A stretch of DNA of 64,000 nt from Jannaschia sp. S6380 (GTDB lineage Bacteria > Pseudomonadota > Alphaproteobacteria > Rhodobacterales > Rhodobacteraceae): positions 186,001-250,000 of the forward strand of contig NZ_JALKAS010000002.1 of the NCBI RefSeq assembly GCF_023015695.1, written 5' to 3'. Positions 13,832 through 43,695 of this stretch are shown here, piece by piece. The notes under the pieces were generated by a model that ran no database searches, was not told the DNA's origin, and saw nothing but the letters and a program-made list of their open reading frames with translations. Numbering within the stretch: the first letter of the stretch is position 1; the number at the start of each line of letters is the position of its first letter. The translations under genes were made by a program, and so were the position numbers.

Positions 13832-13848
13832 GTTAACGTTGCGTTAAC
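13832..13848. promoter_or_regulatory. Perfect CtrA-type box upstream of the LysR gene
   Basis: GTTAACGTTGCGTTAAC is a perfect dyad (GTTAACG-TTG-CGTTAAC) and an exact match to TTAA-N7-TTAAC, the recognition pattern of the alphaproteobacterial response regulator CtrA; it also fits TTAAC-N5-GTTAAC. It lies 142 bases before the LysR start and downstream of the stop of the small coiled-coil gene. TTAA is very rare in this GC-rich window, so chance is a weak explanation. Confidence 0.6.
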
Positions 13849-13989
13849 CTTCATCTGCACGGTCGGCTTCGGCGTTTCGTGCCCCGCTTTAATCCCGAAT
13901 CCATCCCGCGATTGACCGGCGCGCGGCTTGGTCGTGCCGCAATTGGTCGTCAGCTTCGGGACAGTCGAATTATTCCCAAGGGCCTTTTC

Positions 13990-26761: not shown

Positions 26762-27316
26762 ATGCGGATCGAACGGACCAACCTGGACGGCGTGATGCTG
26801 CTGACCCCGCGCCGCTTCGGCGACGCGCGCGGCTTCTTCGCCGAGACCTGGAACGCCCGCGTCTTCGCCGAGGCCGGCATCGAGGCCACGTTCGTACAGG
26901 ACAACCACTCCGTCTCGGACGCCGTCGGCACGCTGCGGGGGCTGCATTATCAGGCACCGCCCGACGCGCAGGGCAAGCTGGTGCGCTGCGGGCGGGGGCA
27001 TCTGTTCGACGTGGCCCTGGACCTGCGGCGCGGCTCGGCCACCTATGGCGAATGGACGGGGCATGACCTGTCGGCCGAGAATGGGCGGATGCTCTGGATC
27101 CCGGAGGGCTTCGCGCATGGCTTCGTGACCCGCGCGCCGGGAACGGAGATCGTCTACAAATGCACCGGCTTCTACGCGCCCGGGGCCGAAGGTGCCGTGC
27201 GGTGGGACAGCTGCGGCATCGACTGGGGCCTGATCGGGGCGCCCCTGCTGTCGGAGAAGGACGCCGCCGCGCCGCCCCTTGCCCGCGTCGCCGCGCCCTT
27301 CGGGGCCGACGCATGA
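26762..27316 (+). CDS. rfbC: dTDP-4-dehydrorhamnose 3,5-epimerase
   Basis: A 184-residue RmlC cupin, third enzyme of dTDP-L-rhamnose synthesis. It epimerises C3 and C5 of dTDP-4-keto-6-deoxyglucose. [10 protein letters not shown] holds the catalytic His (about residue 62), and [12 protein letters not shown] and [17 protein letters not shown] are family motifs. It is the first of three overlapping rhamnose genes (C, B, D). The ATG of rfbB overlaps its stop (ATGA). Confidence 0.96.
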
Positions 27317-28353
27317 AGCTGCTGGTCACCGGCGGGGCGGGCTTCATCGGCTCGGCGGTGGTGCGGCAGGCGGTGGCGGCCGGGCTGGACGTCGTCAACC
27401 TGGACGCGCTGACCTATGCCGCCTGCCTGGCCAACGTGGCCCCGGTCGCGGATGCTCCGAACTACGCGTTCGTCCACGCCAACATCACCGACCGGCGCGC
27501 GCTGGATGACGCCTTTGCCGCCCATGACCCCGACGCGGTGATGCACCTCGCCGCCGAGAGCCATGTCGACCGTTCGATCGACGGGCCGGGCGCCTTCGTC
27601 GCCACCAACATCACCGGCACCTACAACCTGTTGGAGGCGGCGCGCGCGCATTGGGACCGGCGCGGCCGCGCCGAGGCGTTCCGGTTTCACCACATCTCGA
27701 CCGATGAGGTGTTCGGTTCGCTGGGCCCCACGGGGCGTTTCACCGAAGTCTCGCCCTATGACCCGCGCAGCCCCTATTCGGCTTCGAAGGCCGCAAGCGA
27801 CCATCTGGTCCGCGCCTGGCACGAGACCTACGGCCTGCCGGTTCTGCTGACCAACTGCTCCAACAACTACGGGCCTTATCACTTCCCCGAAAAACTGATT
27901 CCGGTGGTGATCCTGAACGCGCTGCACGGTCGGCCGATCCCGGTCTACGGCGCCGGCGAGAACGTCCGCGACTGGCTGTTCGTGGAAGATCACGCCGACG
28001 CGCTCTTGTCCGTGTTGCGGAACGGGCGCGTCGGGCGCAGCTACAACATCGGCGGCGACAGCGAGGCGCGCAATATCGACCTCGTCCGCGCGATCTGCGC
28101 CATCCTCGATCGGCTGCGGCCGGAGGGTGCGCCGCATGCCGACCTCGTCACCTTCGTCGCGGACCGGCCCGGCCACGATGCGCGCTATGCCATCGATGCT
28201 GGCCGCATCCACGAGGAACTGGGCTGGCGCCCCTCCGTCACGCTGGCCGAGGGGCTGGAGCGGACCGTCCGCTGGTATCTGGACAACGAGGCATGGTGGC
28301 GTCCGCTCCTGGATCGCGCCGGGGTCGGCACCCGGCTGGGGACGGGGCGGTGA
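27313..28353 (+). CDS. rfbB: dTDP-glucose 4,6-dehydratase
   Basis: A 346-residue extended short-chain dehydrogenase (RmlB) that converts dTDP-glucose to dTDP-4-keto-6-deoxyglucose using bound NAD. The NAD motif is [15 protein letters not shown] (about residues 5-19). [25 protein letters not shown] (catalytic Asp/Glu) and [12 protein letters not shown] (Tyr-x3-Lys) are diagnostic, as is [18 protein letters not shown]. It overlaps rfbC by ATGA and rfbD by GTGA. Confidence 0.97.
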
Positions 28354-29192
28354 CGATCCTGGCGTTCGGCCGGACAGGCCAGGTCGCGCGTGCGCTGGCA
28401 TCCCACGGGGTCGTCAACCTGGACCGGGCGGCCGCCGATCTGTCCGTGCCGGGTGCCTGCGACGCGGCGATCCGCGCGGCGCGGCCCCGCGCGGTCATCA
28501 ATGCCGCAGCCTGGACCGATGTCGACGGGGCGGAGGATGCGGAGGCGGCGGCGATGCGCATCAACGCGGACGCCCCGGGCGAGATGTCCCGCACCTGCGC
28601 GGAACTGGATCTGCCCTTCGTTCACCTGTCGACCGACTACGTGTTCGACGGGTCCGGCACCGGCCCTTGGCGCCCGGACGATCCGGTGGCGCCGCTGGGC
28701 GCCTATGGCCGCAGCAAACTGGCCGGCGAACGCGCCGTGACCGCCGCCGGCGGTCGCCATGTCGTGCTCCGGACAAGCTGGGTGTTCTCCGGCACGGGGC
28801 GGAACTTCGTCACGACGATGCTGCGCCTGGGGGCCGAACGGGACCGTTTGTCGGTGGTGAACGATCAGGTCGGCGGGCCGACCCCTGCCGCCGCTATCGC
28901 CGATGCCTGCGGGCAGATCGTGGCGGCGATGGCGGAGGGCGCGCCGTCGGGCATCCATCATTTCGCGGGGTCGCCCGATATCGACTGGGCCGGCTTCGCG
29001 CGGGCAATATTCGCGACCGCGGGCGTGGACTGCGCCGTCGACGGGATCGCGGCCGCCGATTGGCCCGCCAAGGCCCCGCGTCCGTCCAATTCGCGGCTGG
29101 ACTGCTCGGCGCTCGCGGACGTTTTCGGCATCGGGCGGCCCGACTGGCGGGCCGCCCTGAAGAATGTGGTCGGGAAAGTATCGCGGCGCTAG
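28350..29192 (+). CDS. rfbD: dTDP-4-dehydrorhamnose reductase
   Basis: A 280-residue RmlD reductase, last step to dTDP-L-rhamnose. The NAD(P) motif is [14 protein letters not shown] (residues about 3-16). [25 protein letters not shown] and the catalytic YGRSKLAGE (Tyr-x3-Lys) are present, as is [14 protein letters not shown]. It begins with GTG overlapping the rfbB stop. The usual fourth gene, rfbA (glucose-1-phosphate thymidylyltransferase), does not follow; a DUF2793 gene converges after 7 bases instead. Confidence 0.95.
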
Positions 29193-29199: not shown

Positions 29200-30312
29200 T
29201 CACCGCCAGGACCCGATCGCCACCACGTTCACCACCAGCTCGTCCATCTCGGAGAAGGTATGCGGGTTGTCGCCCTTATACTGATGCAGGCGCAGCGTGT
29301 CGCCCGAGACGGTCTGATGCGTCAGCACGCCCAGATATTTCGGCTGTACGCTGGAGGTCGACCAGACCGAGGAGTGATCGACCGAGGCGAAGCTGATGAC
29401 CGGCGTGGTTTCGGCAAAGGCCGCCGGATAGTCCCAATCACCCACCATCTTGTGCCCGCCCGACTGCGTCAGCGTCACGGTGCCGTGGCAGATCATCGTG
29501 CCGTCGGCATGCAGGACCGCGATTCCGGTGGCGGTCTCGCGCCGTTCGATCACGCCGCCGGCGGGCAGGCCCGCGACCGTGGCGACCGGCGCCAGCAGGT
29601 TGCCGGGGCCGAACGTGCCGTCCGTGCGTGCCAGCCGCCCCGGGGTCACGTCGCCGGGCCCGTCCTGCACGGCGGCACCCGTCGCAAGTCCTGTCAGCGC
29701 GTCGAAGCGCAGCGCGGTTGTCCAGCCTGTGCCGTCGGCGCTGACCTTGACGGAAAACGCATCCTCGCCCGCGCAGCCCATCTCGGCCCGCCCGGAATAG
29801 CCGGTCTGGAACAGCAGCGTGCCGGTATCGCCCGAACCTGCCTTGTTCAGCACCAGTCGATGGTCGGAGCCGTCATGCGTCAGCAGTGTCGAATCCGAGG
29901 CCACGGCCAGCCGGTTCGCCGCGTCCGCCGCCGCGTTGATGCCCAGTTGCGGCAACGTCTCGGGCGCGGGGGCGGCGTCGGCGATCCAGGCGGTGCCGTC
30001 ATGGCGGCGGTCGACCCGTGCCTCGGCGTCATGCACCCGCCATCCGGGGGCGGGCGACAGGAAGGTCCAGCCGTTGCCCGCGAAGACCGCGATGTCGCCG
30101 TCACGGCCGGACCAGGCGCCGATGGCGCCGGGGGCAACGATATGGCGGTCGCCCTCGGCCGGCAGGTCGGGCGGGGCGGTGCGGTCGGCATCGGTGACGA
30201 CCGGCTGGACCAGCGCGTCCAGCATGCGCAGTGCTTCGTTGTGGGTGATGTGCTTCTGTGCCTGACCGCCCTGGATCAGGGGCAGGGACAGGATGGTGGT
30301 GTTTTCCGACAT
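29200..30312 (-). CDS. DUF2793 fibre-like protein (phage/gene-transfer-agent type)
   Basis: A 370-residue protein. Residues about 8-100 are a DUF2793 domain (LPLIQGGQAQKHITHNEALRMLDAL, EGDRHIVAPGAIGAW, GWTFLSPAPGW). The middle links to a C-terminal head of about 120 residues (TMICHGTVTLTQSGGHKM, DWDYPAAFAETTPVISFAS, LRLHQYKGDNPHTF) that looks like a tail-fibre receptor-binding tip. No signal peptide is seen. DUF2793 proteins occur in phages and, from memory, in fibre/spike components of the Rhodobacter gene transfer agent. It lies 80 bases downstream of the OPX gene, inside a capsule region, and a CtrA-like box sits just upstream. Confidence 0.82.
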   Translation of the reverse strand: MSENTTILSLPLIQGGQAQKHITHNEALRMLDALVQPVVTDADRTAPPDLPAEGDRHIVAPGAIGAWSGRDGDIAVFAGNGWTFLSPAPGWRVHDAEARVDRRHDGTAWIADAAPAPETLPQLGINAAADAANRLAVASDSTLLTHDGSDHRLVLNKAGSGDTGTLLFQTGYSGRAEMGCAGEDAFSVKVSADGTGWTTALRFDALTGLATGAAVQDGPGDVTPGRLARTDGTFGPGNLLAPVATVAGLPAGGVIERRETATGIAVLHADGTMICHGTVTLTQSGGHKMVGDWDYPAAFAETTPVISFASVDHSSVWSTSSVQPKYLGVLTHQTVSGDTLRLHQYKGDNPHTFSEMDELVVNVVAIGSWR

Positions 30313-30360
30313 GAGCCGCGGCCTCCGGTGATGTGAAGACCGGGACTCTCGGTTTGAGCG

Positions 30361-30377
30361 GTTAACGCTTTGTCAAC
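30361..30377 (-). promoter_or_regulatory. CtrA-like box upstream of the DUF2793 gene
   Basis: On the minus strand the site reads GTTGAC-AAAGC-GTTAAC, one mismatch from TTAAC-N5-GTTAAC. It is 49 bases before the DUF2793 start, in the 80-base gap after the OPX gene. TTGACA within it could also act as a -35 element, although no good -10 follows at 16-18 bases. Confidence 0.45.
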
Positions 30378-30392: not shown

Positions 30393-31496
30393 TCAACGCG
30401 GGGCGGTGCGGATCAGTCCGAAGACCGAGCCGATCAGGCTGAACACCGTCTGCGTCGCCGTGATCGGGCTTTCGGTCACGTAAACCAGGTCCTTGGGCAT
30501 GATCTGGAAGTTTCGTGCCGAGAACAGCCCGTCGGCCGAGGTCAGGTCCAGCGTGAAGATGACCTGCCGGTTGCGCGGGCCGCGCTGGCCGGCCGCCAGG
30601 GCCGAGACGGGGTATTCGCGCAGGATCAGAATGCCCTTCGGGTCGGCGCGCTGCTCCTGCACGCCGCCGATGATCGAGACCGCATCCATCGCGCTGAGCG
30701 TGCTGCGGGTGAAGGGGTGCAGCGCCTCGCTTCCGGCGGCCCCGACGGAAAGGAAATAACGCTCGTCCTCCTGAACGATGACCTGGTCGCCGCTGCGCAG
30801 CAGCGTGTCCAGCCGCGGCTCGTCATAAAGGCGGTCGATGGACGTGCCGTAGAGGCGCGACCCGCGTTGCAGCCGGATCTGCGGATTGTCCAGCGACGGA
30901 TCGACCCCGCCCCCCGCGGCCACCAGGCCGAGAACGGTGAAATTCCCGTCCGGCATCGGAAAGCTGCCCGGCTGGCGCACGCCGCCCACCAGATCGACGG
31001 CGTTGCCCCGGCCCTCGGCCATGGAAAGCTGGACCTGGGCCGACGGGGCCACGTCGAACAGCGCCGCCTCGACGCGGCTGCGCGCGCCCTGTGGCGTGGT
31101 GCCGCCGATCTGGACGTTGCCGACATAGGGCACGAAGATCGATCCCGCCGGCGACACCCGCATCGGGTCGAGGACGGTGCGCCGCCCCTCGGCGGGGACC
31201 AGCAGCGAGTTGATGTCGCTGTCCCAGATCGTCAGCGTCACCATGTCGCCCGGACGGATCACCTGGGCCGAGCTGCCCTGGCTGGCCGTGATCCAGCCCA
31301 GATGGGGCTGGTTGACGTCGGGCCACTGCGCGATCGAAGGCAACAGGGCGCGGGTGACGGGATAGACGGCGAAATCCGCCCCCTGCGTGTCGCTTGCGCG
31401 CACGACTTCCCCCTGCAGGGCGGCGCCGCGCGGAAGGGCGCACCCGCCAAGGGTGCCGAGACACGCCAGAACGGCGAAAAACCTGATGATCCGCAT
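30393..31496 (-). CDS. Polysaccharide export (OPX/Wza-like) lipoprotein
   Basis: A 367-residue outer-membrane polysaccharide export protein. The signal peptide ends in the lipobox LGTLGGC (Cys19 lipidated). The Poly_export domain follows (VIRPGDMVTLTIWDS, AGSIFVPYVGNVQIGGTTPQGAR), then SLBB-type beta-grasp repeats (VDLVGGVRQPGSFPMPDGNFTVLGLVAAGGG and SVGAAGSEALHPFTRSTLSAMDAV). It should form the channel through which the polysaccharide leaves. The ATG at 31496 is preferred to one at 31517 because GGTGGGGGAC precedes it and the signal peptide begins there. Confidence 0.92.
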   Translation of the reverse strand: MRIIRFFAVLACLGTLGGCALPRGAALQGEVVRASDTQGADFAVYPVTRALLPSIAQWPDVNQPHLGWITASQGSSAQVIRPGDMVTLTIWDSDINSLLVPAEGRRTVLDPMRVSPAGSIFVPYVGNVQIGGTTPQGARSRVEAALFDVAPSAQVQLSMAEGRGNAVDLVGGVRQPGSFPMPDGNFTVLGLVAAGGGVDPSLDNPQIRLQRGSRLYGTSIDRLYDEPRLDTLLRSGDQVIVQEDERYFLSVGAAGSEALHPFTRSTLSAMDAVSIIGGVQEQRADPKGILILREYPVSALAAGQRGPRNRQVIFTLDLTSADGLFSARNFQIMPKDLVYVTESPITATQTVFSLIGSVFGLIRTAPR

Positions 31497-31628
31497 GATG
31501 TCGTCCCCCACCGCCATGTGCCCCGGCAGTGGGGCCCGTCGTCGCGCGCCAACCTACCGGACGGGGCGGCGAGGTCAACGCGCCCTACCGTATGACGCGC
31601 CGGTATTCGCGCACGCTTTTCGCCTGCG

Positions 31629-31703: not shown

Positions 31704-33632
31704 TTGTCGCGTACCAAGATCAACGAACCGTCCCGTCTTGAATCGATCCTCCGTTCCCTGACCCGACGCCAGAAATACGCGTTCTTCCTGACGCTCGACC
31801 TGATCCTCGTGGTGACGGCCCTGGTGCTGACGCTGACGGTCAGCAACCTGCCCTACGGCTTTCCGCCCGCCGGCGTCGCCCTTCTGGTCGCGGTGCCCAG
31901 CCTGACCGCGCTGGCCGGCGGCCTGTCGGTCGGGCTTGGCCTGCCGGGCCTGGCGCTGGCCGAATTCGACGGCAGCGCGACGCTGCGCAGCGCGATTCTC
32001 GCCATGATGCTGGCCTTCGCGGCCTTCTTGCTGACCGTGGCCGTGGGGCAGAGCCTGCCCTTCGCGGTCTATGCCGGTTTCGCGATCACGCTGTTCCTTC
32101 TCATGTTCCTGTCGCGGGTCGTGCTCCTGCAGCTCGTCCTCGCCATCTACCGGCGCGGCGGCCGGGTCACGCGGGTGTTGATCTACGGGGCCGGCTCCAC
32201 CGGCACGCAGCTCGTGCGCGCGTTCCGCAGCCACAAGGGCATCGACCCCGTGGCCTTCGTCGACGACAACCCGTCCATGCAGGGCCTGACCATCGCCGGC
32301 CTGCCCGTGCACCGCCCGACCCGTGTGGCCGAGATCGCCGCGCAGAAGCGCATCGACCGCGTGCTGCTGGCCGTCCCGTCGCTCAGCCCGCCCAAGCAGG
32401 CGCGCATCGCCCGCAAGCTGCAGGAGATGGGGCTGGAGGTGCAGACGTTGCCTTCCTTCTCGCAACTCATCGGGACCGAGGCGCTGATCGACCGGCTGGA
32501 GACGATGAAGCCGAAGATGTTCCTGGGCCGCGACGAGGTCGAGGCGCCCCTGATGGATGGCCTCGACATCTACCGCGGCAAGTCCGTCCTTGTCTCGGGC
32601 GCCGGCGGATCGATCGGGGCGGAGCTTTGCCGCCAGCTGCTTGAAGGTCGGCCCCGCCGCCTCGTCCTGTTCGAGATGAGCGAGATCGCCCTGTTCAACG
32701 TCGGACGGGAGCTGCGCCACACCGCCGCCGAATTCGGGGTCGAACTGGTCCCCGTCCTCGGGTCCGTCACCGATGCCGGGCAGGTCCGCCAGGTGATCGA
32801 CCGCGAGGAGGTCGAGATCATCCTGCACGCCGCCGCCTACAAGCACGTGGCCCTGGTGCAGGCCAACCCGCTGGTCGGATTGTCGAACAACGTCCTGGGC
32901 ACCCACATGCTTGCCGCCGCCGCGATCGAGGCGGGGATCGAACGGTTCATCCTGATCTCGACCGACAAGGCCGTCCGGCCGCGCGGCGTCATGGGCGCGA
33001 CCAAGCGGCTGGCCGAACTGGCCGTGCAGGACCTGGCCGCGCGGGTGCCCGACGGCGGCACGATATTGTCGATGGTCCGGTTCGGAAACGTGCTCGGTTC
33101 CTCGGGGTCGGTGGTGCCGATCTTCCACGACCAGATCCGCCGCGGCGGGCCGGTGACCGTCACCCATCCCCACGTCACCCGCTATTTCATGACCATCGAG
33201 GAGGCCGCGCGCCTGGTGCTGCGGGCCGGATCCATGGCCGAGGGCGGCGAGGTCTTCCTTCTCGACATGGGCGAGCCGGTGCGGATCGTCGACCTGGCCA
33301 CCCACGCGATCGAGGCGGCGGGCTACAGCGTTCAGTCCGAAGAGAACCCACAGGGCGATATCGCGATCGAGTATATCGGCCTGTCCGAGGGCGAGAAGCT
33401 GCACGAGGAGTTGTTCTTCGACGGGTCGGAGCGGCCCACGGCGCATCGCAAGATCTTCCGCGTGCGCGAGGACGGCCTGTCGGAGTTCGAGATGGCCGAC
33501 ATTCTGCGCACCCTGCGCCGCGCGGTGGCCGATGGCGACGCGGATCTGGCACTGGACCTGCTGTCGCGGCGCGTCGCGGGTTTCGGACAGGACCGCGCCG
33601 AACCCGCTGCCCCACCGGTGATCCAGGTCTAG
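31704..33632 (+). CDS. CapD/WbpM-like membrane nucleoside-diphosphate-sugar 4,6-dehydratase, TTG start
   Basis: A 642-residue inner-membrane enzyme. About residues 25-150 hold four hydrophobic helices. A CoA-binding-like Rossmann domain follows (VLIYGAGSTGTQLVRAF, about 156-172). The catalytic short-chain dehydrogenase domain begins near residue 290 (VLVSGAGGSIGAELCRQLL). ISTDKAVRPRGVMGATKRLAELAV contains the active-site Asp/Lys and a Met in place of the usual SDR Tyr, as in WbpM/FlaA1. It probably makes UDP-4-keto-6-deoxy-HexNAc for QuiNAc, FucNAc or bacillosamine-type sugars. The TTG start is preceded by AGAGGA. Confidence 0.9.
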   Translation: MSRTKINEPSRLESILRSLTRRQKYAFFLTLDLILVVTALVLTLTVSNLPYGFPPAGVALLVAVPSLTALAGGLSVGLGLPGLALAEFDGSATLRSAILAMMLAFAAFLLTVAVGQSLPFAVYAGFAITLFLLMFLSRVVLLQLVLAIYRRGGRVTRVLIYGAGSTGTQLVRAFRSHKGIDPVAFVDDNPSMQGLTIAGLPVHRPTRVAEIAAQKRIDRVLLAVPSLSPPKQARIARKLQEMGLEVQTLPSFSQLIGTEALIDRLETMKPKMFLGRDEVEAPLMDGLDIYRGKSVLVSGAGGSIGAELCRQLLEGRPRRLVLFEMSEIALFNVGRELRHTAAEFGVELVPVLGSVTDAGQVRQVIDREEVEIILHAAAYKHVALVQANPLVGLSNNVLGTHMLAAAAIEAGIERFILISTDKAVRPRGVMGATKRLAELAVQDLAARVPDGGTILSMVRFGNVLGSSGSVVPIFHDQIRRGGPVTVTHPHVTRYFMTIEEAARLVLRAGSMAEGGEVFLLDMGEPVRIVDLATHAIEAAGYSVQSEENPQGDIAIEYIGLSEGEKLHEELFFDGSERPTAHRKIFRVREDGLSEFEMADILRTLRRAVADGDADLALDLLSRRVAGFGQDRAEPAAPPVIQV

Positions 33633-33673: not shown

Positions 33674-34672
33674 ATGAAACGCGCGCTCGTCACCGGCTCG
33701 GCCGGGTTCATCGGCTACCACCTCTCCCACCTGTTGTTGCAACGCGGCTGGCACGTCACCGGCGTCGACAATCTGTCGGATTACTACGACCCCGAGCTCA
33801 AGCGCCGGCGGCATGCCCGCCTTGGCGACGGGTTTACCGCCGTGATCGGCGATGTCGCGACGCCCGGCCTGATGACGGACCTCCTGGCGCAACACCGGCC
33901 CGACGCCGTCATCCACCTGGCTGCCCAGGCGGGGGTGCGCCATTCGATCGACGCGCCGCGCGATTATGTCGAGGCGAACCTGCTGGGCACCTACGAGGTG
34001 CTGGAGGCCGCCCGCGCCCACCCGCCGGCGCATCTGCTGATCGCGTCGACCTCCTCGGTCTACGGGGCGAACGCGGACATGCCGTACCGCGAAACGGTCA
34101 AGGCCGACACGCAGATGTCCTTCTACGCCGCGACCAAAAAGGCGGGCGAGGCGATGGCGCACAGCTATGCCCATCTCTACGGCGTGCCGACGACGCTCTT
34201 CCGGTTCTTCACCGTCTACGGCCCCTGGGGCCGACCGGACATGGCGCTGTTCAAGTTCGTCCGCGCGATCCTGAACGGCCAGCCGATCGACGTCTACAAC
34301 CACGGTCGGATGCGGCGCGACTTCACCTATGTCGGCGACCTGGTGCAGGGCATCGCCGATCTGATCGGCCGGCCCCCGGGGACGGACCCCGTCTCGGAAC
34401 GCGACAGCCTCAGCCCCGTCGCCCCGCACCGGATCGTCAATATCGGCAATGGCGAGACGGTCGAGCTCGGCCGCTTCATCGAGGCGATCGAGGGTGCGCT
34501 CGGGACAAAGGCCACGCGCAATCTTATGGACATGCAGCCGGGCGACGTGCCCGCCACCTGGGCCGATTGCGGCCTGCTGACGGACCTTCTGGGCCACGCC
34601 CTTCCGCGCACGCCGGTCGAGGAGGGCGTGCGCGCCTTCGTCGATTGGTACCGCGACGAATACCGAAGCTGA
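33674..34672 (+). CDS. UDP-glucuronate 4-epimerase (LpsL-like NAD-dependent epimerase)
   Basis: A 332-residue extended short-chain dehydrogenase. The NAD motif is VTGSAGFIGYHLSHLL; GVDNLSDYYDPELKRRRHARL and FFTVYGPWGRPDMALFKFV are features of the UDP-GlcA 4-epimerase (LpsL/Cap1J) group. The catalytic site is STSSVYGAN with YAATKKAGE (Tyr-x3-Lys). It would turn UDP-glucuronate, supplied by the ugd product at 54.3 kb, into UDP-galacturonate for the polysaccharide. It follows the CapD-like gene by 41 bases. Confidence 0.9.
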   Translation: MKRALVTGSAGFIGYHLSHLLLQRGWHVTGVDNLSDYYDPELKRRRHARLGDGFTAVIGDVATPGLMTDLLAQHRPDAVIHLAAQAGVRHSIDAPRDYVEANLLGTYEVLEAARAHPPAHLLIASTSSVYGANADMPYRETVKADTQMSFYAATKKAGEAMAHSYAHLYGVPTTLFRFFTVYGPWGRPDMALFKFVRAILNGQPIDVYNHGRMRRDFTYVGDLVQGIADLIGRPPGTDPVSERDSLSPVAPHRIVNIGNGETVELGRFIEAIEGALGTKATRNLMDMQPGDVPATWADCGLLTDLLGHALPRTPVEEGVRAFVDWYRDEYRS

Positions 34673-35385: not shown

Positions 35386-36321
35386 TCAGAGCGTGACGCC
35401 CCCGGCGGCCATCCTGCGCCTGACGTCCCGGGGCGGAGCGAGGCCGAACCCGCCCCGCAGGACCGCCCCCGCCGCGGGCAGGTCGCGCCGCAGAACCAGT
35501 TGACCGGCCTTGGCGACGGTGAAGGCCCAGGCGCCGGGCAGGGATGCGGGCCGGTGGCGGCGCACGAACCGCAGCCGCGCGCGGTGCTTGAACCACTCCG
35601 AGAACGGCGAGGCCAGGCGACCCGGGCGCTGCGACCCGATCGAGGTGCCGGCCCGGTGCCGCACCACGGCGTCCGGACAATAGAGCAGCGGAAGCGGCCC
35701 GCGGCGCAGGGCCCAGTCAACCTCCTCGTAATACAGGAAGTAATCTTCGGGCATGGGGCCGGCCCGGTCGACGAAGGTCCGGCTGACGACCATGCTGGCC
35801 CCGGTGACGAAGACGATGTCGGAGGCCGAAGGCGGCGCCGTCCCGGCGTCCGCGTTCTGGTTGAGGTTGCGTGTCCGGCCCGTCCGCCAGTCGACGATGC
35901 CACCGTCGATCTGGATTGCCCCGGGCGGATCGGCATAGATCACGCGCCCGCCCAGGATGCCGAAACCGTCGGGCGCGGCATGGGTGGCGAAAGCGGCGGC
36001 GGTGTCCGGCGGGACCAGCGTGTCGGGGTTCAGAATCCAAAACCGGTCCAGGCCCGCGTCCTCCATCAGGATCCGCAGCCCGTGGTTCACGCCTGCCGCA
36101 AAGCCCCCGTTGCGATGGGTCGGGCACCAGCGCAGGTTGTGCGGGTCCGGGGCCCGGCGCCCGGCCACCACTTCGGCCGTGGCATCGGGCGAGTCGTTGT
36201 CGACTACCACCACCGATAGCGCGACGCCCCTGCTTTGCAGAAGCGTATCCAGGCAGTCGCCGATCACGTCGGCCGAGCCATGGGTGACGATCACGACGCC
36301 GAGGCGGGGCAGGTCGGTCAT
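35386..36321 (-). CDS. Family 2 glycosyltransferase (rhamnosyltransferase-like)
   Basis: A 311-residue GT-A fold enzyme. GVVIVTHGSADVIGDCLDTLL, VVVDNDSPD and RNGGFAAGVNHGL are the nucleotide-sugar-binding segments. WILNPDTLVP carries the DxD-equivalent, and DYFLYYEEVDWALR is the acceptor/base region often seen in WbbL-type rhamnosyltransferases. With rfbCBD nearby, rhamnose transfer is a reasonable guess. It overlaps the polymerase/ligase-like gene by ATGA and lies in a run with the beta-helix protein. Confidence 0.9.
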   Translation of the reverse strand: MTDLPRLGVVIVTHGSADVIGDCLDTLLQSRGVALSVVVVDNDSPDATAEVVAGRRAPDPHNLRWCPTHRNGGFAAGVNHGLRILMEDAGLDRFWILNPDTLVPPDTAAAFATHAAPDGFGILGGRVIYADPPGAIQIDGGIVDWRTGRTRNLNQNADAGTAPPSASDIVFVTGASMVVSRTFVDRAGPMPEDYFLYYEEVDWALRRGPLPLLYCPDAVVRHRAGTSIGSQRPGRLASPFSEWFKHRARLRFVRRHRPASLPGAWAFTVAKAGQLVLRRDLPAAGAVLRGGFGLAPPRDVRRRMAAGGVTL

Positions 36322-37706
36322 GATACGCGCCGCGCGCGGATCGTCATCGCCCGGCCCGGGCGAGGCGCAAAGCGGGTATAGGACGTGCGGGGCCGTGCGG
36401 GCCCCGCGGGCGCCGGCGGCGGCGCGCCCATGTCGGTGGCGCCCGGCTGCACCAGCCAGGCCGTCGCGCCCAGCACGAACAGCGTGAAGGAGAACAGGTT
36501 GCCCCAGACATGCACCGTGGCCAGCGTGAAGCTGAGCCCCAGCAGCGTGAAGACGCAGGCCCGCCGGATGAACAGCAGCGGATGCCCCGGACCCAGCCTG
36601 ACCCGCATCAGCCGCGCCACCTGCCAGGCCCAACCCAGGGCGATGAAGGCGAATCCCGGCACGCCGTAGCGCACGCCCATCACCAGCCAGAAATTGTCCA
36701 TCGAACCGGAATACATGAAATAGGGCCGCACCCAGTCTTTCAGGCCGATGCCGAACAGGATCGACGGCGGGATTTCGTTCTCGGCGTTGCCGAAGATGTT
36801 CATCACGCCCCACTCGAAGATGATGCTGCGCCAATAGGCGTTGTGGGCCGAGAAGGTCGCATGGCTCATGAAGACTTGGAAGGCCGACCGGTTGGAAATC
36901 AGGTCGACGGCGATATAGGCCAGCGCGAAGAGACCCACGAGCAACCACCAGCGCCGCTCCATCCCGCGGAACATCCAGGCCCAGCCGATCAGCGCGACCT
37001 GCAGAACGATGGCGAGCAGCGCCCCCGACGACAGCGCGGTGAACCCCGCGAGCGCGACGCCGCCCGCCGAAAGAAACCGCCAGACGTCGGAGCCGAGACC
37101 CTTGAGCGCCACGAAAGCCATCGAGAACGCGACCGAGCAGAACAGCCCGTAATGGATCGGATGCGCGAACACGGTCTGCACGCGCGCCAGGCCCAGGCGG
37201 GGGTCGTCGCGCGTGATCTCGACCGAGGTGATGCCCGGAAGCGAGCGGATCACCTGCAGGATCAGCGGATCGCCCGTCTGTGTCTCGAGCAGCGCGAAGG
37301 GCAGCGAAATGAGGACGAGCATCACCATCAGCCGGCAGAGCGCCACGAAGTCCGCCGCCGACCGAATGGTCGCCCGCGCCAGGACATAACCGCCCAGGAA
37401 CTCCACCCCGACGGAGGGGGCTTGTTGGATGACGCGGTCTGGGTTGTTGATCGCCAGGGCCAGCGTCAGCCAGGCCGCGTGGAGCAGGAACAGCCAGTCG
37501 GTCGCAAGCACCGGCCCGTAGCGCCCGCGCAGCAGGTTCACCAGCATCGGCAGCGTGACCATCAGCAACAGGATGCGCAGCGTGGTTAGGTGGATCGAGC
37601 CGATGTTCATCGAGATCGGCAGGACCACCGTCAGCAGGTAGAGCACGGCGAGCCAGTGCAGCCGCCCAGACCCGATCGCCGCCGGCGCGGCGGTGGCCGC
37701 CGTCAT
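36318..37706 (-). CDS. O-antigen ligase/polymerase-like membrane protein
   Basis: A 462-residue polytopic protein with about eleven to twelve helices and a large periplasmic loop (about residues 265-345, ending in FGIGLKDWVRPYF). That layout fits Wzy polymerases and WaaL ligases of the GT-C type. The cytoplasmic C-terminal 40 residues are Pro/Arg-rich. It would either polymerise repeat units or ligate the chain to a carrier; sequence alone cannot separate them. It overlaps the beta-helix gene and the GT2 gene by ATGA, forming one translational unit. Confidence 0.8.
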   Translation of the reverse strand: MTAATAAPAAIGSGRLHWLAVLYLLTVVLPISMNIGSIHLTTLRILLLMVTLPMLVNLLRGRYGPVLATDWLFLLHAAWLTLALAINNPDRVIQQAPSVGVEFLGGYVLARATIRSAADFVALCRLMVMLVLISLPFALLETQTGDPLILQVIRSLPGITSVEITRDDPRLGLARVQTVFAHPIHYGLFCSVAFSMAFVALKGLGSDVWRFLSAGGVALAGFTALSSGALLAIVLQVALIGWAWMFRGMERRWWLLVGLFALAYIAVDLISNRSAFQVFMSHATFSAHNAYWRSIIFEWGVMNIFGNAENEIPPSILFGIGLKDWVRPYFMYSGSMDNFWLVMGVRYGVPGFAFIALGWAWQVARLMRVRLGPGHPLLFIRRACVFTLLGLSFTLATVHVWGNLFSFTLFVLGATAWLVQPGATDMGAPPPAPAGPARPRTSYTRFAPRPGRAMTIRARRVS

Positions 37707-39589
37707 GGCAGCGACTTCTCGTCCGGGCGCCATGCGGTTCGCGCGGGTTGGGCGAGCGCGTCCGGCACGCCGTGCAACTCGAAGGCGTCGATGCTGCCCT
37801 CGAAGCTTTCCTTGGTGCCGAAGGGGTTGCCGAAGGACAGCCCCCAGGATCCGCGCGGCGGAAGGATGCCCGTGGCCGCCCGTTCGCCGATGACCTCGTC
37901 GCCTTCGCGCACGGTCAGCATGCCGGCCGGGCCGCGATAGCTGATCGTGATCTCGCCGCTGCCGTCCCGCAGGATGCGGGTCGGGCGCGTGCGCAGCCGC
38001 GTGGCGCCGCCGCCTTCCAGCAGCAGCTCCACCTCGACCGCGCCGCGACCGGTCAGCCAGACGCGCATCGCCTGGTGCAGGCGCAATACCTCGCCATGCG
38101 AACGATAGCCGTCGCGCGGTGTCAGGTGCAGGGTGATCTCGAACGCGCGGGCGTCGAAGAGCGGCGCCGTCATTTCGCGCGGCAGCACGACCGGGTCGAG
38201 CGCATCGCCCACGAGGATCGCGGGGCCGCCGATCTCCAGCCTTTGCAACGGGCGCCCTGCGCCGCCATCGGCCACCAGCGCCTGCGCCTCGGGGTCGAGG
38301 CGGATGCGGCCGCGCATCCCGGCGGTCGGCGCCTCGGGCAGGTCGGGGGCGACCTGCGGAAGGGCCGCGCCCAGGGCACGCAGCATCGGCGCCCCGACGG
38401 TCGCGCCGTCGAGTGGGCCGCCGGCACGGGCGACGAAATGTTCCGCCAGCGCCGGACGCAGGGGCGAAACGGCGTGAAAGACCCGGTCGTAGTGGTCGGC
38501 CTGGCCCGGCACGCGATCCTGGATCAGCAGGTTGCCCGCCACCGTCCAGTCGCCGTGGAAGGCCGGATCGGGCACCGCATGGGCCACATTGCCCAGCACC
38601 AGCACATCGCGGGACCGGTCGTCGACGCGGATGCGCGGTGTCCACAGGCCCGGGTCGTCGCGCTTGCCCGAGGAGGCCGCGTTTCGCGCCACGGTGTTGT
38701 TGCGGATCGTCAGCCCCTCGGTCGCGCCGATGCTGATGCCGTGCAGATGCGCGTTCAGGATCAGGTTCTCCTCGATCACCACGTCGCGGTAGAACATGTC
38801 GGCGCCGGCCGAATGGCTGTCGACCGCCTCGTTGCGCATGAAGATGGATTGGGTGAACAGCCCGGTGCCGGAGTTCAGCAGGTTCCCGCGGATCACGATC
38901 CCGGTGCTGGGGCGGTCGGTGTTGCGCGTCCAGAACTGGATCATGTCGGCATGATCGCCGATGCCTGTGGTGCGGTCAAAATCGCGGATCACGTTGTCCT
39001 CGATCCGGACGTCGGAGACCTGCGCGAAGTTCATCCCGTCGGACCGCATGCCGTGAACGAGATTGCCGGTCACCGTCACGTCCGAGGAGCGGGTGATGAC
39101 GACACCCTGGGCGAAGCCACGGAAGGTGCTGTCCCGCAACCGCAGCCCGATCGTGTCGTGGACCCCCAGGCCCAGTCCCCAGGGGCCTTCGGCGTCGCGC
39201 GTGCCGTCGAAGGTCAGATCGCCAAGGCGGATGTCCCTCGCGTCGCGGATCACGAAGCTGCGCCGGTCGCCGGCCCCGATCGGGCGCAGCTTGAAGGACA
39301 GGCCGTCGAGGACCAGATGCCCGGTCTCGGTGATCTGCAGCGCGGGAAAGACGGGCCGCGCCGCCCGGTCCGCCGCCCGCAGGGCCAGGGGCGCCGTCGG
39401 CGATCCGCCCCGACCCAAGCGCAGCGGCGGGTAGTCGCCCGGCGCCAGAAGGACCGTGTCGCCGGGCCCCGCCCGTTCCAGAACGGTCGCAAGCGTCTGC
39501 GGGTCGGCGCGCAGGACGCCGTCCGCGTGGGCATTCGCCGCCGTCAGCACCGCCAGGGCGAGGACGCGCATGAGGATTCGCAAGTTCAT
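37703..39589 (-). CDS. Secreted right-handed parallel beta-helix protein with LamG-like C-terminus
   Basis: A 628-residue exported protein (signal peptide about 1-23, ending AANAHA). Residues about 90-340 form a right-handed parallel beta-helix with NOS-type coils (VVITRSSDVTVTGNLVHGM, VIEENLILNAHLHGISIG, LTIRNNTVARNAAS), as in pectate/alginate lyases and mannuronan epimerases. Residues about 460-610 look like a concanavalin/LamG-type sugar-binding sheet (FEITLHLTPRDGYRS, GSWGLSFGNPFGTKESFEG). In the middle of an EPS cluster, a polysaccharide lyase, epimerase or deacetylase-associated role in trimming the product is likely. No catalytic triad could be assigned. Confidence 0.8.
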   Translation of the reverse strand: MNLRILMRVLALAVLTAANAHADGVLRADPQTLATVLERAGPGDTVLLAPGDYPPLRLGRGGSPTAPLALRAADRAARPVFPALQITETGHLVLDGLSFKLRPIGAGDRRSFVIRDARDIRLGDLTFDGTRDAEGPWGLGLGVHDTIGLRLRDSTFRGFAQGVVITRSSDVTVTGNLVHGMRSDGMNFAQVSDVRIEDNVIRDFDRTTGIGDHADMIQFWTRNTDRPSTGIVIRGNLLNSGTGLFTQSIFMRNEAVDSHSAGADMFYRDVVIEENLILNAHLHGISIGATEGLTIRNNTVARNAASSGKRDDPGLWTPRIRVDDRSRDVLVLGNVAHAVPDPAFHGDWTVAGNLLIQDRVPGQADHYDRVFHAVSPLRPALAEHFVARAGGPLDGATVGAPMLRALGAALPQVAPDLPEAPTAGMRGRIRLDPEAQALVADGGAGRPLQRLEIGGPAILVGDALDPVVLPREMTAPLFDARAFEITLHLTPRDGYRSHGEVLRLHQAMRVWLTGRGAVEVELLLEGGGATRLRTRPTRILRDGSGEITISYRGPAGMLTVREGDEVIGERAATGILPPRGSWGLSFGNPFGTKESFEGSIDAFELHGVPDALAQPARTAWRPDEKSLP

Positions 39590-39838: not shown

Positions 39839-41179
39839 TCAGCGTTCGCCTTCGCGCCACATCGCCAGAACAGACAGGACCGCCAGCGCCGCGACAAGCA
39901 GCCATGGCGCGAACGTCGCCCCGGCGGCGAACGCGATCCCCAGGCACCACAGGCATACCCGGTGCACTGGCCATGCGATGCCCGCGTCCCGACGCCGCAC
40001 GAGATGGAGCGAAAGCGCAAATCCCACCGCTTCGCCGAGGCATCCCAGCCAGATAAGCACTGTCAGTTCGGCGCCCGCGCTCAGCGCGGCGATCCCGAGG
40101 ACCAGAGCCCCCACGCGAGGTAGGTTCGACAGCGCGGCATTACCCGTCCAGCCGCGCGCCAACGCCACCACCACGCTTCCGGTCTTGGCGACGCGCAACC
40201 CCTGCAGGATGGCGAGCGGCCCCAGCAGGATGGACAGCGCGCCGTAGCCCGTCCCGGCCAGAAGCGGCGCGGCCAGCCAGCCCGCCGCGACCCCGCAGAT
40301 CGCCAGCGCCAGTCCGGCCAGCATCGACGCCGTCAGCGCGGCATGCGCCGTGGGCACGAAACCCGCCGACCCGGCCCGGGCCGAGAGCCGCGGCAACAGC
40401 GCGGTCTGGATCGATTTCCCCGCGATCAGCGAGGGCGTCAGCGTCAGCGTCACGCCCATTGCGAAGACGCCGAGCGCCTCCATCCCCAGAATGTGCCCCA
40501 CCGCCAACTTGTCCGCCTGAAAGACAAGAAAGAGGATCACGGCATTGACCAACATCGGCCAGCCGAAGCGCAGCGTCCGGGCCCAGAGCGCGCGGTCGAC
40601 CCGCGGCCGCCACGGGCGTTCGGCCATTGCATGCGACAGGATCGCGGCGGCGACCGCCTGCGCCAGGATCGCGCCCAGCATGATCCGCCAGTCGCCCAGC
40701 CAGGCCGCCAGCGGCCAGACCAGCAAAAGCGACAGAAGCGCCGGTGCCGTGCCCGTCGCCATCAGCGGGCCGAACCGGTCGCTGCGGTTCATGCGGTGAA
40801 TGTCGAGATGCTGCATCGCGTTCAGCAGCGGGACCAGCGCCAGCAGACGATAGGCCCAGGCGGCCTCCGGAATGGCCAGGAACGCGGCCATCGGGCCCGC
40901 CAGCAGAAACAGCGCCAGCCCGGCCAGCGCGCCGCGCAGCAGCTGAAACCCGGCCAGGGCGTCCTGCAGGCGCGGGTCGTCGCCGTCGCGGGCCTGCACG
41001 ATCTGTTGCTGCAGCCCGAAGGCGGTGGCCATCTCGACCGCCGCCATGGCCAGCGCGAAGGTCGCCGCGATGCCGTAATCGGCCACCGGGATCAGTGCGG
41101 CGACGGTCAGGTTGCGCGCGAACAGCAGGCCCGAGGCGGCGGCGTTGCCGGACAGGATCAGAAGCGCGGGGCGGGGCAT
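39839..41179 (-). CDS. Wzx-type polysaccharide flippase (MOP superfamily)
   Basis: A 446-residue polytopic membrane protein with about twelve helices, of the PST/MATE-like MOP group. Typical points are the N-terminal NAAASGLLFARNLTVAALIPVADYGIA, the loop LDIHRMNRSDRFG after helix 4, and FQADKLAVGHILGMEALGVFAMG in the second half. It should flip undecaprenyl-linked repeat units across the inner membrane. The ATG at 41179 puts the first helix close to the start; an in-frame ATG at 41230 would add 17 residues. Neither has a strong ribosome site. It diverges from the F420-hydrogenase-beta-like gene. Confidence 0.86.
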   Translation of the reverse strand: MPRPALLILSGNAAASGLLFARNLTVAALIPVADYGIAATFALAMAAVEMATAFGLQQQIVQARDGDDPRLQDALAGFQLLRGALAGLALFLLAGPMAAFLAIPEAAWAYRLLALVPLLNAMQHLDIHRMNRSDRFGPLMATGTAPALLSLLLVWPLAAWLGDWRIMLGAILAQAVAAAILSHAMAERPWRPRVDRALWARTLRFGWPMLVNAVILFLVFQADKLAVGHILGMEALGVFAMGVTLTLTPSLIAGKSIQTALLPRLSARAGSAGFVPTAHAALTASMLAGLALAICGVAAGWLAAPLLAGTGYGALSILLGPLAILQGLRVAKTGSVVVALARGWTGNAALSNLPRVGALVLGIAALSAGAELTVLIWLGCLGEAVGFALSLHLVRRRDAGIAWPVHRVCLWCLGIAFAAGATFAPWLLVAALAVLSVLAMWREGER

Positions 41180-41287
41180 CGGGACATGTCCGGTGGGAAA
41201 AGGCTTGCGGGGTTGTGCGGGGCTTGCCATGCTGGGGTCAAGCCGCAAGCCCGCAAGAAGGCCCATGACGGCAGACAGAGCAGTGCA

Positions 41288-42532
41288 GTGAAGACGATCG
41301 ACACCCCTCTCGCGGATGCGGCCATGGCCACGTCCGAGGCACTCGCCATCGTGGCGAAGGGCGATCTGTGCGCCGGTTGCGGCGGCTGTGCCGGCATGTT
41401 CCCCGACGCCATCGCCATCCGGACGAAGGCGCCGGGCTTCCTCCGCCCCGTGCAGGTGGGGGCGCTGCCCGTCGGCGCCGACGACGCGATCGCCGACATC
41501 TGCCCGGGCCTGGGACAGCGCGTGGCGCCCGGGGGGCGTAGGGACGACCCGCTTTGGGGGCCGTGGCGCAGTGCCTGGACCGGCTGGTCGATGGATGGCG
41601 GGGAGCGGCATCGCGGCGCGTCGGGCGGCGCGCTCACGGCGCTTCTGACGCATCTTCTGCGCGCGGGCGTGGTGCAGGCGGTGGTCCAGAACGCGCCCGA
41701 CCCGAAGGCCCCTCTGGCGAACCGCACGGTGCTGACCGACGATCCGGCGGCGTTCTCGGCCACGGCCGGGTCGCGCTATGCACCCTCGGCGCCGCTGGAG
41801 GCGCTGCCCGATATCCTGGCCGACGGGCGCCGCGTCGCCTTCGTGGGCAAGCCCTGCGACGCGGCCGCGTTGGCGGCGATCCGGGCCCGCGACCCGGCCG
41901 TGGCGCGCGCGGTCCCGGTCATCGTGTCGTTCTTCTGCGCCGGCGTCCCCTCGGCCACCGGCGCGCGCGAGATCCTGCGCCAGTTGCGGGTGGAAGAGAC
42001 CGAGGTCGCGCGTTTCCGCTATCGCGGCCATGGCTGGCCGGGCCGCGCCACGGCCGTGCTGCACGACGGGACCGAACGGTCGATGACCTATCGCGAGAGC
42101 TGGGGCGGCATCCTTTCGAAGCATGTCCAGCATCGCTGCAAGATCTGCGCCGACGGGACGGGCAAAGCCGCCGATCTTGTCTGCGCCGACGCGTGGGAGG
42201 TGGACGATTCCGGCTATCCCCGCTTCGACGAGCGTCCGGGCGAGAGCCTGGTCCTGGCGCGCACCGTTCTGGGCGAACAGATCGCCCGTGGGGCCCAGGC
42301 CGCGGGCCGGCTGGCCCTGCGTCCCTATGACATGGCGCGGCTGGCCGATATCCAGCCCGGCCAGCGGGAGCGGCGGCGCGCGCTCTCTGCCCGACTGGCC
42401 GCGCTGCGCTTGCTGCGGCAACCGATCCCCGACTATCGCGGCCTGGGCTTGCGGCGGGCGGCGCGGCAGAACCCGTGGCGGCGGAACCTGCGCAACTTCC
42501 TCGGCACCCTGCGTCGCCACCTGCGGCGATGA
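41288..42532 (+). CDS. Coenzyme F420 hydrogenase beta-subunit-like Fe-S protein of polysaccharide cluster
   Basis: A 414-residue FrhB/FdhB-family protein. The N-terminus has a ferredoxin-type motif DLCAGCGGCAGMFP (three cysteines as CxxCxxC). The C-terminal domain has GKPCDAAALAA, VSFFCAGVPSATGA and HRCKICADGTGKAADLVCADAW, all family blocks with Fe-S or flavin roles. Such proteins recur in capsule clusters next to pyruvyl transferases, with unknown chemistry. The start is uncertain: GTG at 41288 or ATG at 41324. It overlaps the pyruvyl transferase gene by ATGA. Confidence 0.85.
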   Translation: MKTIDTPLADAAMATSEALAIVAKGDLCAGCGGCAGMFPDAIAIRTKAPGFLRPVQVGALPVGADDAIADICPGLGQRVAPGGRRDDPLWGPWRSAWTGWSMDGGERHRGASGGALTALLTHLLRAGVVQAVVQNAPDPKAPLANRTVLTDDPAAFSATAGSRYAPSAPLEALPDILADGRRVAFVGKPCDAAALAAIRARDPAVARAVPVIVSFFCAGVPSATGAREILRQLRVEETEVARFRYRGHGWPGRATAVLHDGTERSMTYRESWGGILSKHVQHRCKICADGTGKAADLVCADAWEVDDSGYPRFDERPGESLVLARTVLGEQIARGAQAAGRLALRPYDMARLADIQPGQRERRRALSARLAALRLLRQPIPDYRGLGLRRAARQNPWRRNLRNFLGTLRRHLRR

Positions 42533-43695
42533 GCGCCCCGCTCCGCATCCTGCTGCTGATGCACTCGACCCGGTCGCACAACCTGGGCGTCGGTGCGCTC
42601 AGCGTGGCGGAAGTCGCCATCCTGCGTCGCGTCGCCGCGCGGCTGGACCGGCCACTTGCGATCACGCTGGTCGACTATCCCGACGCGCGCACGCCCTATG
42701 TCACCGGCGACGATATCCGGATCGTTCCGCTGTCCGGCCGCTGGGTCAAGAACCCGCGCGGCTACTGGGCGGAGCTGCGCCGGGCCGATGCCGTGATCGA
42801 CATCGGCGGCGGCGACAGCTTCGCCGACATCTACGGGCGCAGGCGCCTGCGGCTGATGTTCGCGCTCAAGGCGCTGGCGCATCTGGCGGGAAAACCGTTC
42901 ATCTTCGCGCCGCAGACGGTGGGGCCGTTCAACCGTACCGCGTCGCGGCGCCTGGCGCGCATGCATCTGGACCGGTGCCGGCTGGTCGCGGTCCGGGACG
43001 AGCCGTCGCGCGATCACATGTATGAATTGGGCGTGCGCCGCCCGCCTGTCCTCGCCTCCGACGTGGCGCTGGCCATGCCGGCGGGGCCCGCACCGGACCT
43101 GCCGGGGGCGGGGCCCCATGTCGGGCTGAACGTGTCGGGTCTGCTGATGGGGGGCGGATATACCGGCCGGAACGAGTTCGGCGTCTCGCTGGACTATCCC
43201 GTGCTGATCGACGATCTGATCCGCTGGTTCCAGGGGCAGGGTGCCTGCGTGCACCTGATCCCGCATGTCATCGTCCCCGACGGCCCGCTGGCGGGCGAGG
43301 ACGATTACCGCGCCTGCGCGGCCCTGGCCGAGAAACACCCCGGCACCGTTCTCGCGCCGGCCTTCGCCTCGCCGCCCGAGGCCAAGGCCCATATCGCAGC
43401 GATGGATTTCTTCCTCGGTGCGCGGATGCATGCCTGCATCGCCGCGTTCTCGACCGGGGTTCCGGTCGTCCCGATGGCCTACAGCCGCAAGTTCGCGGGG
43501 TTGTTCGGCTCGCTCGGCTTCCACCGGACGGTGGACTGCACGGCCTCCGACGCGCGGACGATCCTCGATGCGGTGGCCGAGGCCTGGCATGACCGCGACG
43601 TCGTGGCGACGGAGGTCCGTGCAGCCCATGCGCGCGGGCTCGACCGGCTCGGCCGGTACGAGGCCGCGCTGGGCGACACCTTGGCCGCGCTTTGA
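42529..43695 (+). CDS. Polysaccharide pyruvyl transferase family protein
   Basis: A 388-residue CsaB/WcaK-type enzyme with two Rossmann halves. LLMHSTRSHNLGVGALSVAE starts the first; IDIGGGDSFADIYG and FAPQTVGPFNRTASRRLA follow. The second half has GLNVSGLL and the conserved DFFLGARMHACIAAFSTGVPVVPMAYSRKFAGLF. It would add a pyruvate ketal from phosphoenolpyruvate to a sugar of the repeat unit, giving the polymer negative charge. It is coupled to the Fe-S protein gene upstream (ATGA) and to a glycosyltransferase downstream (TGATG). Confidence 0.9.
   Translation: MSAPLRILLLMHSTRSHNLGVGALSVAEVAILRRVAARLDRPLAITLVDYPDARTPYVTGDDIRIVPLSGRWVKNPRGYWAELRRADAVIDIGGGDSFADIYGRRRLRLMFALKALAHLAGKPFIFAPQTVGPFNRTASRRLARMHLDRCRLVAVRDEPSRDHMYELGVRRPPVLASDVALAMPAGPAPDLPGAGPHVGLNVSGLLMGGGYTGRNEFGVSLDYPVLIDDLIRWFQGQGACVHLIPHVIVPDGPLAGEDDYRACAALAEKHPGTVLAPAFASPPEAKAHIAAMDFFLGARMHACIAAFSTGVPVVPMAYSRKFAGLFGSLGFHRTVDCTASDARTILDAVAEAWHDRDVVATEVRAAHARGLDRLGRYEAALGDTLAAL

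Follow-up and report, generated by a model that had tools for sequence, protein, structure and literature searches.

Why should a phage-type tail-fibre gene lie in the middle of a polysaccharide locus? The question is raised by a 64,000-nucleotide stretch of the Jannaschia sp. S6380 genome (contig NZ_JALKAS010000002.1, positions 186,001 to 250,000; hereafter the window, numbered from its first letter), in which a gene of the DUF2793 family stands among genes for polysaccharide export and synthesis. The overall reading, which we consider very likely, is that this gene encodes the tail fibre of a gene transfer agent (GTA), that it has a CtrA-type late promoter and that it is kept beside the genes for its receptor polysaccharide. 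The parts of this reading that sequence analysis establishes are the family, the predicted fold, the presence of a GTA cluster, the promoter architecture and the recurrence of the linkage.

Identity of the fibre gene

The gene and its two parts are placed as follows (coordinates in the window).
29200..30312, minus strand: gene assigned as GTA tail fibre (Rcc00171-type, DUF2793), 370 residues, ATG start; by family and homology
29689..30312, minus strand: conserved N-terminal part, residues 1-208 (DUF2793 and knob region); by alignment and per-part identity
29203..29559, minus strand: C-terminal lectin-like foot, residues 252-370; by predicted structure

A preliminary description, made from the letters of the window alone, had proposed a 370-residue DUF2793 gene encoding a GTA fibre or spike. 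The gene was confirmed at 29200-30312 on the minus strand, with the DUF2793 domain (PF10983) at residues 24-109 (family scan, E 3.9e-30), and it is the only DUF2793 gene in the genome (3.53 Mb in six contigs, 99.96% complete). In BLASTP, a 371-residue DUF2793 protein of Rhodobacter capsulatus, P0061, is 49% identical to it over 324 residues, with the last 50 residues outside the alignment. P0061, an entry with 50 member sequences, was taken as Rcc00171, the tail fibre of the R. capsulatus GTA (RcGTA), from its species, length of 371 residues and family, with no locus tag behind it. Rcc00171 is described as having 371 residues with a rod, a knob and a foot (PMC7296036), and the DUF2793 family has been entered as tail fibre, among the families that co-evolve with GTA genes (PMC10883770).

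The structure of the fibre was predicted as a monomer (predicted template modelling score 0.47; predicted local distance difference test score 90 or more in the foot). The foot model resembles the feet of R-pyocin and AP22 fibres, with 6ct8, 6cxb and 4mtm matched, and the single Foldseek row at E ≤ 0.001 was the R1 pyocin fibre. The foot fold is thus shared with R-type pyocin fibres and AP22 gp53, whereas particle type and host differ. Our comparison was with these feet and not with the Rcc00171 structure itself; pyocin and AP22 feet had been fitted into the RcGTA tail-fibre map (PMC7296036). The fold search thus bore out the receptor-tip-like C-terminus noted beforehand, and we judged that the matches were not to unrelated phage proteins only. 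The foot is presumed to be the receptor-binding tip; residues 1-208 are presumed, by analogy with RcGTA, to attach to the baseplate. Residues 5-116 also match a chain of the R4C baseplate (8gtc, E 9.2e-15), and PHROG tail-fibre families are matched by the DUF2793 fibre.

The main GTA cluster was looked for in the genome and found (L083, contig 1, 940-960 kb; L and G numbers are our handles for loci and genomes). Eight of the 10 open reading frames (ORFs) scanned there match RcGTA-type head-tail families, namely megatron NF048004 (equivalog), the RcGTA tape measure NF058675, TIGR02217, TIGR02218, TIGR02219, a TP901-type tail protein, the HK97 capsid and the portal, and the head-tail genes of this GTA lie on another contig than the fibre gene. 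Among 150 family genomes, one per genus, a megatron match (E ≤ 0.001, prophage megatrons counted too) was present in 116 of the 117 DUF2793-positive genomes versus 19 of the 33 DUF2793-negative ones (Fisher p 6e-10). Because of the 49% identity, the pyocin/AP22-like foot model, the lack of a second DUF2793 gene and the RcGTA-type cluster, we regard the window gene as almost certainly a GTA tail fibre and the counterpart of Rcc00171. The protein adds a new member to a known family.

The same evidence bears on the idea that the protein is a host surface or matrix component, a former fibre now serving the host as a polysaccharide-binding lectin outside any particle. The lectin-like foot and the position of the gene behind a Wza-type gene on the same strand would suit such a protein, but its N-terminal region is conserved, genomes with DUF2793 nearly always have a megatron match as well, and no signal peptide was seen by eye (no prediction program being applied). 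We consider this origin extremely unlikely.

Of the two identities first proposed, fibre or spike, the fibre stood by homology and the head spike (GhsA/GhsB) was rejected: an NCBIfam scan of the window gene returned no family, its protein begins MSENTTILSLP, and the ALGLGLGL-type star peptide has 0 matches in the genome. A search of the S6380 genome for the spike-base family NF048002 gave nothing, and neither did the spike-base protein of L294 as a query, in a search run without a positive control. NF048002 is present in only five of 20 genus genomes (G004, G006, G011, G016 and G017); in the others, head spikes seem to have been lost, replaced or too diverged.

A CtrA-type site within a composite late promoter

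Upstream of the fibre gene, two overlapping elements were located.
30361..30377, minus strand: CtrA-type site GTTGAC-N5-GTTAAC, whose TTGA-N7-TTAAC agrees with the consensus at 8 of 9 positions
30343..30365, minus strand: composite element TTAACCGCTC-N5-GAG-N2-TCC, overlapping the right CtrA half-site

The CtrA-type consensus is TTAA-N7-TTAAC. The GTTGAC-N5-GTTAAC site had been reported at the outset and was recovered at 30361-30377, reading GTTGAC-AAAGC-GTTAAC with 48 bases between it and the fibre ATG. All 20 genomes of the genus carry DUF2793, with one stand-alone copy each, broken in one (L137, which has no tblastn match, is outside this count); seven further genus copies lie inside prophage tail clusters, beside a g15-like phage gene. 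When 130-base upstream regions were scored, a site of 7 or more of 9 preceded 19 of the 20 stand-alone copies (window included) versus 12 of 325 other upstream regions, each of these 19 sites beginning 56-73 bases before the start, and a site of 8 or 9 of 9 preceded 16/20 versus 7/325 (Fisher p 8e-19). The seven prophage-type copies score 4-5, and in other genera a site of 7 or more stands before 15 of 33 stand-alone copies versus 1 of 27 in-cluster copies. In L134 (G001), the fibre frame stops after 80 codons and the promoter element is intact.

The right half-site is followed by a second element, YGCTC-N5-GAG, giving the consensus TTAAcg...CGTTAACcGCTC...C.GAG.gTCC, and the fibre promoter is the sole exact match to TTAACCGCTC-N5-GAG-N2-TCC in the genome. 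On a scale of 13 positions, 19 of 20 fibre promoters score at least 11 for the composite, versus 2 of 965 other upstream regions (fibre promoters excluded), a comparison that is favoured because the composite was derived from the fibre promoters themselves. The endolysin promoters offer an independent test, as they were picked by protein family alone (NF040573, found in 20/20 genus genomes): 17 of 20 score 11 or more and 19 score 10 or more, and the distance from the beginning of the composite to the gene start is 48-61 bases in 19 of them and 85 in L316. Their left CtrA half-site is weaker, and in some the best full site lies elsewhere. Across the 20 genomes, the composite at ≤2 mismatches has 76 matches versus 32 for a reversed control; at ≤3 mismatches in the S6380 genome it has 14 versus 27 and is therefore not enriched, so that only the best matches are meaningful.

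Thirty of the 76 places were examined, and they comprise 14 fibre genes, six endolysins, two tspA genes beside lysS, one spike base (NF048002), five loci with a BrnA-antitoxin-like gene and two that are unexplained. Since the composite is common to the fibre, the endolysin, some tspA genes and one spike-base gene, it marks a late GTA regulon. Derived from fibre promoters alone, it also picked out the BrnA-antitoxin-like gene, and provides a sequence signature for scattered GTA genes. A small BrnA-antitoxin-like protein accompanies this GTA-type promoter element at L155:6985-7482 (the S6380 copy, PF14384) and at L277, L280, L297, L298 and L299, the match in L277 lying somewhere in the locus; we regard this gene as a candidate new member of the GTA regulon.

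For R. capsulatus, the activation of rcc00171, of the head spikes and of the lysis genes is attributed to phosphorylated CtrA acting with GafA, and the promoters of all three are reported to contain putative CtrA half-sites (PMC9638019). GafA binding has been placed 50-100 bases before tspA (PMC13420450, preprint), and the CtrA site of gafA itself usually lies 65-71 bases from the start (PMC6363796). The window gene resembles rcc00171 in its DUF2793 family, its length (370 versus 371 residues), a lectin-like foot, a place outside the main cluster and an upstream CtrA-type site; it differs in having a near-complete site (8/9) plus YGCTC-N5-GAG, compared with the half-sites reported there (PMC9638019). 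From these promoter sequences we infer that CtrA and GafA control the fibre gene in cells, phosphorylated CtrA, probably with GafA, activating it from its own promoter together with late GTA genes such as those for endolysin and tailspike. The GCTC-N5-GAG block may, at a guess, be a contact for GafA or the polymerase.

RcGTA has a tailspike, TspA (rcc02623; PMC13420450, preprint), whose gene is likewise GTA-associated and adjoins lysS, and three genus copies of it (that of S6380, L283 and L295) have the promoter element of the fibre. TspA differs in fold and role, being a beta-helix protein that degrades biofilm (PMC13420450). The S6380 copy (L153:4612-7017, contig 1 at ~2.15 Mb) lies near lysS with two small genes between, and is preceded by a perfect CtrA-type site and by the composite at one mismatch; its frame has an in-frame stop 25 codons past the TspA-like start, from a real loss or a sequencing error.

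Recurrent linkage to polysaccharide genes

A polysaccharide gene of the panel lies no more than four genes away from 15 of the 20 stand-alone fibre genes of the genus, compared with 0 of the seven prophage-type copies; the panel was seeded from the window and the genus neighbourhoods, which favours the figure of 15/20 but not the family figure. For the family, 60 of the 117 DUF2793-positive genomes were sampled (exactly one match, a listed place, the first 60 in handle order), with the fibre required to be at least 8 kb from the contig start, which dropped G025, G050, G053, G055, G093, G110, G126, G146 and G165. GTA or phage tail clusters hold 27 of these 60 copies, of which 23 were identified by label and four (L161, L162, L196 and L206) by g15 in the locus. 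Among the 33 stand-alone copies of other genera, 16 are linked, 13 of them within two genes, versus 2 of 40 control regions (Fisher p 2e-5) and 4 of 260 control genes. The control regions, 33 in other genera and 7 in the genus, were taken at 100 kb from a fibre gene on the same contig. The synteny of DUF2793 genes with capsule-type genes, checked in this way across the family, therefore recurs.

The linked neighbours in the genus vary from wza with flaA1, flaA1 with rml genes, rml genes alone, a family 4 glycosyltransferase (GT4) or glycosyltransferases of families 1 and 2 (GT1/GT2) to a nucleotidyl transferase, an epimerase with a CapD type, and phosphomannomutase with manC. Neighbouring genes were called by a GC-frame script that misses or mislabels some (in L133, galU/rfbB versus wza in two scans).

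The neighbours in the window are the following.
26762..29192, plus strand: rmlC, rmlB and rmlD (dTDP-rhamnose synthesis), convergent with the fibre gene; TIGR01221, TIGR01181 and TIGR01214 over cut-off
30393..31517, minus strand: Wza-type polysaccharide export protein; PF02563, E 1.7e-12
31704..33632, plus strand: FlaA1/CapD-type nucleotide-sugar dehydratase/epimerase (Polysacc_synt_2); PF02719, E 7.4e-107
33674..34672, plus strand: NAD-dependent sugar epimerase; NCBIfam matches all below cut-off, best E 3.4e-40
35386..36282, minus strand: family 2 glycosyltransferase; PF00535, E 2.9e-11
36271..37713, minus strand: membrane protein, Wzy-like by position and reading only, with no family matched
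39839..42520, minus strand: ORF with a terminal polysaccharide flippase (Wzx-type) domain, residues 474-715; PF13440, E 1.3e-31
42475..43695, plus strand: polysaccharide pyruvyl transferase; PF04230, E 5.9e-35
43692..44537, plus strand: family 2 glycosyltransferase; PF00535, E 2.5e-16
44534-45391, minus strand: Wzc-like autokinase; TIGR01007, E 6.6e-25, below cut-off
45403-47091, minus strand: Wzz-like chain-length protein; PF02706, E 1.3e-5

The polysaccharide genes first noticed on both sides of the fibre gene are therefore real, with rmlCBD on one side and wza and others on the other. The Wza-type gene, on the same strand, stops 80 bases upstream of the fibre start, and beyond it polysaccharide genes predominate up to ~47 kb. 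The accompanying remark that no other phage gene lies nearby holds within four genes for a panel of eight proteins from the GTA cluster of S6380, which is blind to unrelated phage genes, the whole 64 kb not having been family-scanned gene by gene.

The preliminary description also placed some GTA spike/fibre genes next to capsule genes in R. capsulatus; this is correct for the head spike rcc01079/80 (PMC10218006) and not for the tail fibre. GhsA/GhsB, encoded by rcc01079/80 beside the capsule genes rcc01081-01086, provide the same arrangement of a receptor-binding GTA gene adjoining receptor-polysaccharide genes, but they are a spike base and a head fibre, a different protein from the tail fibre described here, so that the tail fibre in the window holds the capsule-linked place occupied by the head spike in the known case. 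No placement in a polysaccharide locus is described for rcc00171 in the literature surveyed, with Hynes 2016 outside the survey. The recurrent linkage of tail fibres to polysaccharide genes and the composite late promoter are likewise not described in that literature (subscription papers fell outside the survey).

Phylogeny of the fibre

In a tree of 85 N-terminal parts (L134, L162 and L163, under 200 residues, were left off), the window gene and P0061 fall in a clade of 62 rows (support 99), and 23 short in-cluster DUF2793 genes form a separate clade (support 99). Inside the 62, a supported group unites the seven genus prophage-type copies with L193, L171, L178, L185 and L199. Inner resolution is poor, with 46 of 82 branches open. 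Linked and unlinked stand-alone rows require at least 14 changes on the tree, and linked versus all other rows 16, of which 3 are forced by starred branches. The number of independent origins of linkage is thus above one and otherwise uncertain. In many genera (L159, L160, L167, L208 and others), the lone DUF2793 gene is short (mostly 235-237 residues) and lies in the GTA cluster; it is either a tail fibre without the long tip or a different baseplate part.

The tree also bears on whether the window fibre is the remnant of a prophage (an R4C-like siphophage) or tailocin, or a moron, instead of a GTA part. DUF2793 fibres do occur in phages, as the 8gtc and PHROG matches attest, seven genus copies lie beside the g15-like gene, and these seven are joined on the tree by four stand-alone copies from other genera. 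The window gene, however, stands apart from the prophage copies on the tree and has no GTA/phage panel gene within four genes, its promoter element is common to endolysin, tspA and one spike-base gene, and a stand-alone copy is present once in each of the 20 genus genomes, though broken in one. A prophage or tailocin origin is therefore very unlikely.

Variable tips and the meaning of the linkage

Genus-wide, the first 208 residues of the fibre align and the tips form unlike classes. BLAST finds no similarity between the tip of the window protein and the tips of L119, L126, L122, L117, L125 and L133, although identity over the N-terminal parts is 53-67%. Of the neighbours shared with L119, L126 and L122, the Wzy-like protein has diverged most (38-47% identity), while the sugar epimerase keeps 79-80% identity to its L119 and L126 counterparts. 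Tip and polymer both being fast-changing would fit this pattern, seen in a handful of loci.

Several observations weigh against a fibre kept beside, and matched to, its receptor genes. Five of the 20 genus copies are unlinked (L123, L124, L128, L134 and L136; in L124, rml genes lie ~7 kb from the fibre gene), as are 17 of the 33 stand-alone copies in other genera, which have no panel polysaccharide gene within four genes. Four of the 33 (L171, L178, L185 and L199, two of them linked) fall with the prophage-type copies on the tree and are perhaps not GTA fibres; their removal gives 14/29. Linkage also clusters on the tree, none of 500 shuffles of the label giving as low a value; it is thus partly inherited, the loci cannot count as independent, and the linkage p-values come out too small. 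In L119 and L126, wza, flaA1, the epimerase and the family 2 glycosyltransferase are 66-80% identical to those of the window and the tips are dissimilar, and the tip is therefore not simply tracking the locus. No CtrA-type site of 8/9 or better lies upstream of wza or the rml genes in the window, leaving co-regulation of fibre and receptor unsupported there, and the fibre could be co-transcribed with wza. Finally, the polysaccharide-linked G135 (L205) is the sole DUF2793-positive genome without a megatron match.

A competing reading is neutral placement, in which the gene is a GTA tail fibre that lies where it does because polysaccharide loci are recombination hotspots collecting movable genes, and in which it binds another surface sugar, such as the lipopolysaccharide core or another polysaccharide. 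The linkage is far from universal, the at least 14 changes on the tree are as expected of a mobile gene, and RcGTA tail fibres have been proposed to bind an outer-membrane receptor (PMC7296036). Against this stand the 16/33 linked copies compared with 2/40 control regions (other movable genes were not among the controls), and the 0/7 for the genus prophage-type copies, a comparison that is not like for like, since these copies belong to phage tail clusters. The differing neighbours (wza/flaA1, rmlBCD, manC, GT4, epimerase) also mean that one old insertion is no explanation. We consider neutral placement rather unlikely.

Under the reading that we prefer, a GTA tail fibre kept beside the genes for its receptor, the fibre would be built into RcGTA-type particles, its N-terminal DUF2793/knob part attaching to the baseplate and its lectin-like foot binding a cell-surface sugar. 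A tagged R. capsulatus tail fibre binds capsule-bearing cells better (PMC10218006). Whether the sugar is the very polysaccharide made by the neighbouring genes we rate at about even chances. Selection would keep the tip and the receptor polysaccharide linked, and particles would then recognise cells wearing the producer's own coat; that the fibre stands among coat genes, here and often in relatives, suggests particles aimed at kin with a matching coat.

Because the DNA packed into GTA particles consists of short pieces of the host genome taken at random, the fibre gene and an adjacent receptor-synthesis gene can travel on one piece. Fibre and neighbouring genes might thus form a movable, greenbeard-like lock-and-key cassette, a tentative idea that we think unlikely. 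If it were true, transfer would change the coat of the recipient and the aim of its future particles together, GTA exchange would stay within coat-matched kin, and tips and coats would diversify as pairs across the Rhodobacteraceae. The selection that maintains costly GTAs is an open question, and the physical linkage of a receptor-binding gene to receptor synthesis, seen across many genera, would provide kin-directed DNA delivery with a genetic basis.

Other CtrA-type sites in the genome

The sequence TTAA-N7-TTAAC occurs 16 times in the S6380 genome (both strands, palindromes counted twice) versus 2 for a reversed control, and is thus enriched. One perfect site lies between rfbA-like and manC-like genes, named by reading (L263, contig 1 at ~2,349,776), and CtrA may on this basis control some sugar precursors. 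Another, the perfect palindrome TTAACGTTGCGTTAAC, is found at 13832-13848 in the window, 46 bases before a LysR-family regulator gene (13879-14895).
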